DNA of 36,110 bases from Patescibacteria group bacterium (GTDB lineage: Bacteria; Patescibacteriota; Patescibacteriia; Patescibacteriales; GWC2-42-12), in NCBI GenBank assembly GCA_028703305.1, contig JAQVNC010000011.1:1-36110 (forward strand). Reading direction: 5' to 3'. The translations under genes were made by a program, and so were the position numbers. A model generated the notes under the pieces. The model saw only the letters and a program-made list of their open reading frames with translations, searched no databases and was not told the origin of the DNA. Of this stretch, positions 3,072-13,021 are shown one piece after another; the first letter of the stretch is position 1; each line of letters opens with the position of its first letter.

Positions 3072-3100
3072 ATTTTACCCTGTTTTAGCTAAATTGTCAA
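3072..3100 (-). promoter_or_regulatory. Sigma-70-type promoter of lysS
   Basis: On the minus strand, TTGACA (3100-3095) is followed by a 17-nt spacer and TAAAAT (3077-3072): a consensus -35, optimal spacing and a 5/6 -10. Transcription would start near 3065, giving a leader of about 30 nt before the lysS ATG at 3035. Confidence 0.8.
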
Positions 3101-9871: not shown

Positions 9872-10672
9872 TTAACTTTTTTTCGGTCTGCCTCTTTTTT
9901 TAGATTTTTTGTCTTCAGCCGCTTCCTCTTCTTTTTCCTCCGCGATTTCTTCTTCGGCTTCAGTTTTTATTTCTTCCGCTCCGCCGGTCTTTTCAACTAA
10001 AGCGTTAAATTGGCTTATTAAGATAGCCACGGCTTTATAAAAAGCGTCTTCCGGAGTTATGGTGCCGTCGGTGGTTAAATCTAAGATCAATTTATCCCAG
10101 TTAGTCATTTTTCCGATGCGGACATTTTCAATATTTACGCCGACTGACATAACCGGGGAAAAAATTGAATCCATTTCAATATAGCCGATTTCGTTTTTAG
10201 CGCTTTCGCGGCTTTCAACCGTAATATAACCGGCGCCCCGGGCAACAAAAATTTCCATGCTTAAACTTCCGGCCATATCAGTCACATGGCCCAGAACCAA
10301 ATCAGGATTGGCTATTTCAACCAAGCTATTTTTTTTAATGTCGGAAGCTTTAACTTCTTTTTCGCCGCGGGCATCAAGCTCTAGCGTTACCGTTTCATCA
10401 GTAAAAACTTTCAAGCGCAATTTTTTTAAATTTAAAATAAGTTCTAAAACATCTTCTTTAACATGGGGCAAAGTCATGAATTCATGGTCAGCGCCCTTGA
10501 TTTTTACGCCGACAGCGGCGGCTCCGGGCAAAGATGATAATAATACCCTCCTTAAAGCATTGCCGATGGTAGCGCCATAGCCGGGATAGCATGGCTCAAT
10601 AACAACCTGTTTGTTATTCGCTTTAGAGCTTTTAATAAACTCTATTTTTTGAGGCAAAGCTATTTTTTCCAT
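9872..10672 (-). CDS. rpoA: RNA polymerase subunit alpha lacking the C-terminal domain
   Basis: The N-terminal assembly domain is complete. Conserved PGYGATIGNALRRVLLSSLPG contacts beta and beta', VKEDVLELILNLKKLRLK follows, and NWDKLILDLTTDGTITPEDAF closes the dimer interface. I start at the ATG encoding MEKIALPQKIEF (10672), because the in-frame ATG at 10717 would overlap rpsD by 23 nt and add a non-conserved peptide. Instead of the helix-hairpin-helix C-terminal domain that binds UP elements and activators, the protein ends after about residue 228 in an acidic, Glu-rich tail of ~40 residues that finishes KKRGRPKK, which resembles an AT-hook. At 266 residues it is short next to the ~310-330 of most bacteria. 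Confidence 0.95.
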   Translation of the reverse strand: MEKIALPQKIEFIKSSKANNKQVVIEPCYPGYGATIGNALRRVLLSSLPGAAAVGVKIKGADHEFMTLPHVKEDVLELILNLKKLRLKVFTDETVTLELDARGEKEVKASDIKKNSLVEIANPDLVLGHVTDMAGSLSMEIFVARGAGYITVESRESAKNEIGYIEMDSIFSPVMSVGVNIENVRIGKMTNWDKLILDLTTDGTITPEDAFYKAVAILISQFNALVEKTGGAEEIKTEAEEEIAEEKEEEAAEDKKSKKRGRPKKS

Positions 10673-11339: not shown

Positions 11340-11891
11340 TTAAACTCTCCTTGGTTTTTTAGGCCGGCAACCGTTGTGCGGTATGGGCGTAATATCTTTA
11401 ATTGAAGTAATAATCAAGCCATTGGCGTTTAAAGCCCTAATCGCCGATTCGCGTCCGGTGCCGACGCCTTTTACCATCACGCTAACTTCGTTTAAGCCGT
11501 ATTCTTTGGCTTTTTCCACCGCGATTCTGGTAATTATCTGGGCGGCGTATGGAGTGGATTTTTTCGGCCCTTTAAAACCAGCCATGCCGGCCGAAGACCA
11601 AGACAGGACGTTGCCGCTTAAATCGGTTAAGGCCACAATGGTGTTATTGTAAGTCGCTTTAACATGAGCGACGCCTACCGGGACTCTTTTATCGGTTTTC
11701 TTTTTGCGCCCTTTTTTCTTGTTGGTTTTTCTGTCTTCTTTGCTTTTTTCCAGTTTTTTTCTGATTTCTTCAGGTAATTCTTCAACCATATTCAAAGGAT
11801 TGCCAGTCTTAATAATCGGCTCGTCCATTTCAGCCGCGGTTGGAATTTTTTCTTCTTTGATTTCTACGTCTTGTTTTTTTTCTTCCGTCAT
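11340..11891 (-). CDS. rpsK: 30S ribosomal protein S11 (uS11) with a charged N-terminal extension
   Basis: From about residue 67 the protein is a standard S11: [59 protein letters not shown] and the C-terminal [15 protein letters not shown]. Residues 1-66 are extra. This stretch is rich in Glu and Lys, contains [20 protein letters not shown] and ends in a basic run [11 protein letters not shown]. Usual length is ~129; this is 183. The extension reads in frame from a good ATG with no internal Met directly before the core, so it looks genuine. A structured inverted-repeat element occupies the gap upstream of it. Confidence 0.95.
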
Positions 11892-12992: not shown

Positions 12993-13021
12993 ATTATATA
13001 GTTTATTTAGTTAGCTGTCAA
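12993..13021 (-). promoter_or_regulatory. Consensus sigma-70 promoter of the ribosomal operon
   Basis: TTGACA (13021-13016), 17-nt spacer, TATAAT (12998-12993) on the minus strand: a full match to the consensus in both boxes with optimal spacing. Such strength fits a highly expressed infA-rpsI operon. Confidence 0.9.

Follow-up and report, generated by a model that had tools for sequence, protein, structure and literature searches.

A candidate AT-hook tail on RNA polymerase alpha subunits without a C-terminal domain in Patescibacteria

The rpoA locus and the tail of its product

The window, by which we mean the whole stretch of 36,110 nt that was analyzed, carries on its minus strand an rpoA gene (positions 9872–10672, with the open reading frame starting from the ATG at 10672) for an RNA polymerase alpha subunit of 266 aa that lacks the C-terminal domain (CTD), as identified by Pfam and TIGR02027. 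The order of genes around it is the standard S13-S11-S4-rpoA-L17, with rpsD and rplQ as neighbors, and a single rpoA match was found in the window's genome. Residues 1–228 (9989–10672, minus strand) make up the N-terminal domain (NTD) with its dimerization and insert domains, for which the Pfam families RNA_pol_L (PF01193, residues 26–222) and RNA_pol_A_bac (PF01000, residues 56–172) both gave full-length matches. The TIGR02027 model scored 249.2 bits (cut-off 227.8) and its alignment ends at model position 232 of 298, while alignments of solved alpha subunits to the protein reach residue 225–253 or less. In an AlphaFold2 prediction made with 26 relatives the NTD was folded confidently, confidence was low from residue 230 on, and the tail had pLDDT values of 43–54. 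By its domains, its single copy and its position in the ribosomal protein cluster the product is a bacterial RNA polymerase alpha subunit, and it is the normal, sole one of this Patescibacterium, which is similar to Ca. Falkowbacteria: named matches place its relatives among Ca. Falkowbacteria and ‘Parcubacteria group’ genomes, in a class that we take to be ABY1 (the class name is our own reading).

Residues 226–266 form the tail. Its last 40 residues, EKTGGAEEIKTEAEEEIAEEKEEEAAEDKKSKKRGRPKKS, consist of an acidic, Glu-rich stretch followed by KKRGRPKK and a final Ser, which agrees with the preliminary description of this DNA, where an acidic, Glu-rich tail of about 40 residues ending in KKRGRPKK had been noticed. 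The acidic linker (residues 226–256; 9905–9997, minus strand) cannot be aligned between relatives and, given its low pLDDT, these roughly 30 residues are presumably disordered. The AT-hook motif at the C-terminus (residues 258–265; 9878–9901, minus strand) has the RGRP core with basic flanks by which AT-hooks are recognized. On this tail the Pfam model AT_hook (PF02178) gave 14.2 bits, below its cut-off of 17.4, with the motif running into the C-terminus; on the tail of a relative (L370) the same model reached 20.6 bits.

DNA coding for K-R-G-R-P-K-K (search pattern K[RS]G[RS]PKK) occurs at one site in the window's genome, at rpoA. Across 287 genomes of the class we found 56 such sites compared to 7 for a reversed control, and by our own tally 41 of the 56 fall at rpoA 3′ ends. 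Several other proteins with related features were seen on the way. Ribosomal protein S9 has an N-terminal extension with RKRGRPKK or KKRGRPKK in three relatives (L448, L449 and L455 in genomes G569, G544 and G524), two of these genes being close to rpoA (about 1 kb) and the third on the same contig as rpoA. A tyrosine recombinase of G569 (L460, XerC/D-like by eye) has the AT-hook end RKRGRPKKDKGVDDKS. Genome G642, in which rpoA is not the site of the hook, has two similar frames of 132–134 aa (L385, L386) with EVKKRGRPKK near the C-terminus. In G585 (L454) RpoA was matched twice, on contig C10 by a protein with a KKRGRPKK tail and again on C1, so that either rpoA is duplicated or other sequence is mixed in. 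In the window itself the product of the S11 gene (11340–11891, minus strand) is extended at its N-terminus by about 70 residues, acidic at first and then basic, which resemble the RpoA tail in their make-up.

Loss of the alpha C-terminal domain

The CTD family RNA_pol_A_CTD (PF03118) gave no match in the window's RpoA even at E ≤ 10, and no match over the cut-off anywhere in the genome (925 kb, 98% complete). Two matches below the threshold were dismissed as spurious, since the better one overlaps murI and the other is a frame of 24 codons with a stop. A frameshifted or displaced CTD was ruled out as well: the next gene, rplQ for ribosomal protein L17 (9512–9862, minus strand), lies 10 bp past the rpoA stop and leaves no room for a displaced domain, the genome is without a CTD, and relatives are alike. 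Because the same form was found in all relatives checked, the truncated RpoA is not an assembly frameshift. It is common to all 12 matched members of the family and to about 100 members of the order, whose rpoA frames are mostly 240–300 aa in length, the longer ones having longer tails. Among the 287 genomes sampled from the class, CTD matches within rpoA numbered 0, and the loss is therefore old and lineage-wide; as far as sequence comparison reaches, it is shown to be ancient in the class. The preliminary description had proposed an RpoA without its CTD, and this holds for a protein of 266 aa with a complete NTD and no PF03118 match. It had also named an assembly frameshift hiding the domain and relatives with a full domain as findings that would speak against it; the distance of 10 bp to rplQ and the equally truncated relatives speak against the frameshift, and no relative with a full domain appeared within the class (287 genomes). 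A separate CTD gene, for which it had advised a search, was absent over the cut-off from the 98% complete genome.

Elsewhere in the phylum, 306 of 380 genomes have a PF03118 match over the cut-off, so that the CTD is present in most, and several other Patescibacteria lineages outside the class are CTD-less too. The absence of the domain is by itself not new: alpha-CTD loss is already known for ‘Parcubacteria’ and is given for Hodgkinia, Tremblaya and microalgal chloroplasts in the relevant passage of PMC8321222. RNA polymerase goes unmentioned in the text of Nelson and Stegen 2015, a candidate source for the loss in Parcubacteria. As a separate observation, eight relatives in the class (L079, L209, L210, L211, L213, L216, L218 and L226) have proteins in which sigma-70 region 4 (PF04545) is joined to an alpha CTD (PF03118), and in three further cases (L089, L208, L225) a small protein consists of hardly more than a CTD. 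Such proteins might provide the CTD in trans, positioned near −35.

Distribution, conservation and selection of tail types

A survey of RpoA tails across Patescibacteria, likewise advised in the preliminary description, compared 204 distinct CTD-less with 55 CTD-bearing RpoAs. RGRP was observed within the last 50 aa in 59 of the 204 CTD-less proteins (48 of 193 when sequences fetched for holding the pattern are left out) and in 0 of the 55 CTD-bearing ones, whereas only 0.01 is expected by chance (maximum 1) from 200 shuffles of the same CTD-less tails. Besides the 59 tails with RGRP, we classified 18 as hook-like (with ends such as KKRGKAKK, KKRGRTKK, KKRGRKPK and KKRGRLKK), 78 as plainly basic (Lys-rich ends such as KKKSKK and KKTKKK) and 49 as neither. 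The mean net charge of CTD-less RpoAs was +3.3 in the last 15 aa and −5.4 in the preceding 30 aa, compared to −1.4 and −0.2 in the CTD-bearing proteins. RGRP hooks are spread over at least 21 coded families, and one RpoA with a hook (L354) comes from a different class of the phylum. When the hook was mapped as a label on the NTD tree we counted at least 21 state changes, compared to 51 with shuffled labels, and 22 clades in which all members have the hook. On this tree the hook is thus inherited within clades and yet gained or lost often. Since 78 of the 204 tails are only basic and 49 neither basic nor hook-like, the hook is, judged by its distribution, one selected solution and no requirement for a CTD-less polymerase (about 70% are without exact RGRP).

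Across ten aligned relatives R260-G261-R262-P263 is invariant and the preceding 30 residues are unalignable; this invariance holds among proteins that are 60–86% identical overall to the window's RpoA. Of the 12 family members 11 retain RGRP, and the remaining one shows RGRL. Within the family, pN/pS was 0.02 for the hook (eight codons), 0.195 for the NTD (140 codons) and 0.69 for the linker; in twelve other groups the hook gave values from 0.00 to 0.08. These are uncorrected pairwise Nei–Gojobori proportions with synonymous sites near saturation, and the hook sequences were picked for RGRP, which lowers pN somewhat, whereas linker and NTD were not so picked. The codon comparison thus shows that the hook is kept by selection acting on the protein, with strong purifying selection on its codons. 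A chance origin of RGRP from low-complexity sequence was ruled out by the tail shuffles together with the codon analysis. The tail had been called AT-hook-like in the preliminary description; this part stood, and the conserved RGRP, the almost exclusively synonymous change in its codons, the occurrence in at least 21 families and the restriction to CTD-less RpoA make it a selected and recurrent feature besides.

Promoters and the possible function of the tail

Two promoters of the window had been described beforehand as near consensus, and they are: the one upstream of infA and the S13-S11-S4-rpoA-L17 cluster (12993–13021, minus strand) matches the sigma-70-type consensus TTGACA-17-TATAAT at 12 of 12 positions, and the other (3072–3100, read 3100–3072), with a 17-nt spacer too, at 11 of 12. 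That they reflect the type of polymerase is, as far as the hook is concerned, not supported, because 12/12 promoters number 4 in the window's genome (G000), 4 in a hook-less relative (G076) and 1 in a second hook-bearing genome (G023), no CTD-bearing genome being among the three compared. As the hook-less relative is equal in this count, there is no support for tying promoter strength to the hook, and the idea that the hook gives rise to near-consensus promoters was rejected. Directly upstream of −35 the AT content was 0.726 in G000 compared to 0.652 elsewhere in the same regions, an excess that is a weak trend for promoters of 11/12 or better (n = 19, p = 0.054), and neither G023 nor G076 showed a raised value. 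A UP-element signature upstream of −35 gave no clear signal in these stretches of the three genomes, for which crude ORF and promoter calls and consensus matches rather than mapped starts were used.

In model bacteria it is chiefly the alpha-CTD to which UP elements and many activators dock, and since alpha is a dimer, each polymerase has two alpha tails. We consider it somewhat probable (about 0.55) that the tail is a flexible, polymerase-tethered minor-groove anchor, weak and sequence-lenient, which partly replaces the alpha-CTD. In this view both tails would be flexible tethers, and the RGRP core of each would enter the minor groove of A/T-rich DNA close to the enzyme, most probably in the region directly upstream of −35 that the alpha-CTD normally occupies. 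Such weak and sequence-lenient anchoring would partly replace the contact to UP elements and not that to activators, and the hook may be modulated or masked by the charge of the acidic linker. We infer the DNA binding of the hook by analogy with the bacterial proteins CarD and WhiB7. From the same two precedents the earlier suggestion that the tail substitutes for upstream-DNA contact appears plausible, although the AT content of promoters gave it no clear support.

The main rival to a minor-groove anchor is a general electrostatic tether for nucleic acids, in which hook and Lys-rich ends would be equivalent and without promoter selectivity, serving for example search or elongation, with RGRP as one favored form. 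That 78 of the 204 CTD-less tails are simply basic, that the tree requires 21 or more switches between hook and other ends, that hook-like intermediates exist and that the stretches of three genomes gave no AT signature ahead of their promoters would all suit such a tether. However, the exact RGRP is constrained (pN/pS 0.02) and far above what composition predicts (59 compared to 0.01), from which it follows that the specific core matters, and we regard the tether as rather unlikely. An improbable reading is that RNA or the ribosome is the partner of the basic tail, for instance in transcription–translation coupling or in holding nascent RNA. AT-hooks can bind RNA or proteins as well, basic RGRP-type motifs in general are able to bind RNA, and the hook on the S9 extension in three ABY1 genomes is similar, but the canonical core is a DNA minor-groove motif and the bacterial precedents associated with the polymerase bind AT-rich DNA.

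Persistence of the CTD in trans, with a hook unrelated to CTD loss, is very improbable for the window's genome, where no CTD was found at 98% completeness, and most genomes of the class have none either; nevertheless a CTD over the cut-off is encoded outside rpoA in 31 of the 287 genomes of the class, and Sigma70_r4 together with RNA_pol_A_CTD was found in 8 of 10 such proteins scanned, so that some ABY1 genomes do encode sigma-region-4/alpha-CTD fusions. It is scarcely credible that the tail is a functionless, neutral remnant of CTD loss, Lys/Glu-rich through an AT-rich genome. The linker does evolve almost freely (pN/pS 0.69) and about a quarter of CTD-less RpoAs are without hook or basic end, but a remnant would not show a hook pN/pS of 0.02, a spread over at least 21 families and invariance at 60–86% protein identity. 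For the hook in hook-bearing families the codon data refute neutrality, which may hold for the linker and the shortest tails.

The wider claim, that the polymerase core of ABY1 bears minor-groove AT-hooks on alpha in place of the alpha-CTD and thus has another architecture for upstream promoter contact, repeatedly gained or lost in the class and with at least one case in another class, we regard as an even bet. The AT-hook tail of RpoA is a genuine feature under selection, and it seems to be undescribed, since none of the open-access literature searched connects AT-hooks to rpoA or to the alpha subunit of RNA polymerase. The hosts are ultra-small, uncultured bacteria of a large group, and the loss of the CTD throughout the class together with a selected AT-hook in many lineages is a natural experiment on minimal upstream contact, which bears on how the upstream contact of bacterial polymerase can be rebuilt and, if the hook has the proposed role, would guide promoter prediction and gene expression for these organisms.

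Compared to a standard bacterial RpoA, the window's protein shares the complete NTD, the single copy and the S13-S11-S4-rpoA-L17 order, but it has an acidic linker and a terminal AT-hook and no CTD. With the CTD-less alphas of Hodgkinia, Tremblaya, microalgal chloroplasts and ‘Parcubacteria’ it has in common that the NTD is kept and the alpha-CTD lost; the passage of PMC8321222 that deals with them does not mention an AT-hook tail, whereas here the loss is class-wide and accompanied by a selected motif of DNA-binding type. The RGRP core with flanking basic residues is that of the HMGA-type AT-hook (PF02178), although the window has a single C-terminal hook, 3 bits under the Pfam cut-off, in an otherwise unrelated protein. 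Myxococcus xanthus CarD binds polymerase beta and has an acidic segment and RGRP hooks, the latter binding an AT-rich site that lies upstream of a promoter (PMC4374960). It is likewise polymerase-associated and disordered, with the acidic segment preceding the AT-hooks, but it is a separate, beta-bound protein with four hooks, whereas the window's polymerase would have one hook per alpha as a covalent part of the core enzyme. The CarD/TRCF RNAP-interacting domain (PF02559) gave no match anywhere in the window's genome, and by sequence the resemblance to CarD/CdnL is confined to the acidic-plus-hook layout only. From the same missing match, neither Mfd nor CarD is recognizable in this 98% complete genome. 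Mycobacterial WhiB7, whose C-terminal RGRP hook binds an A-tract upstream of −35 (PMC10245118), is an Fe-S regulator on sigma region 4 and not a core subunit, but like the window's RpoA it is a polymerase-bound protein with an RGRP hook at its C-terminus.
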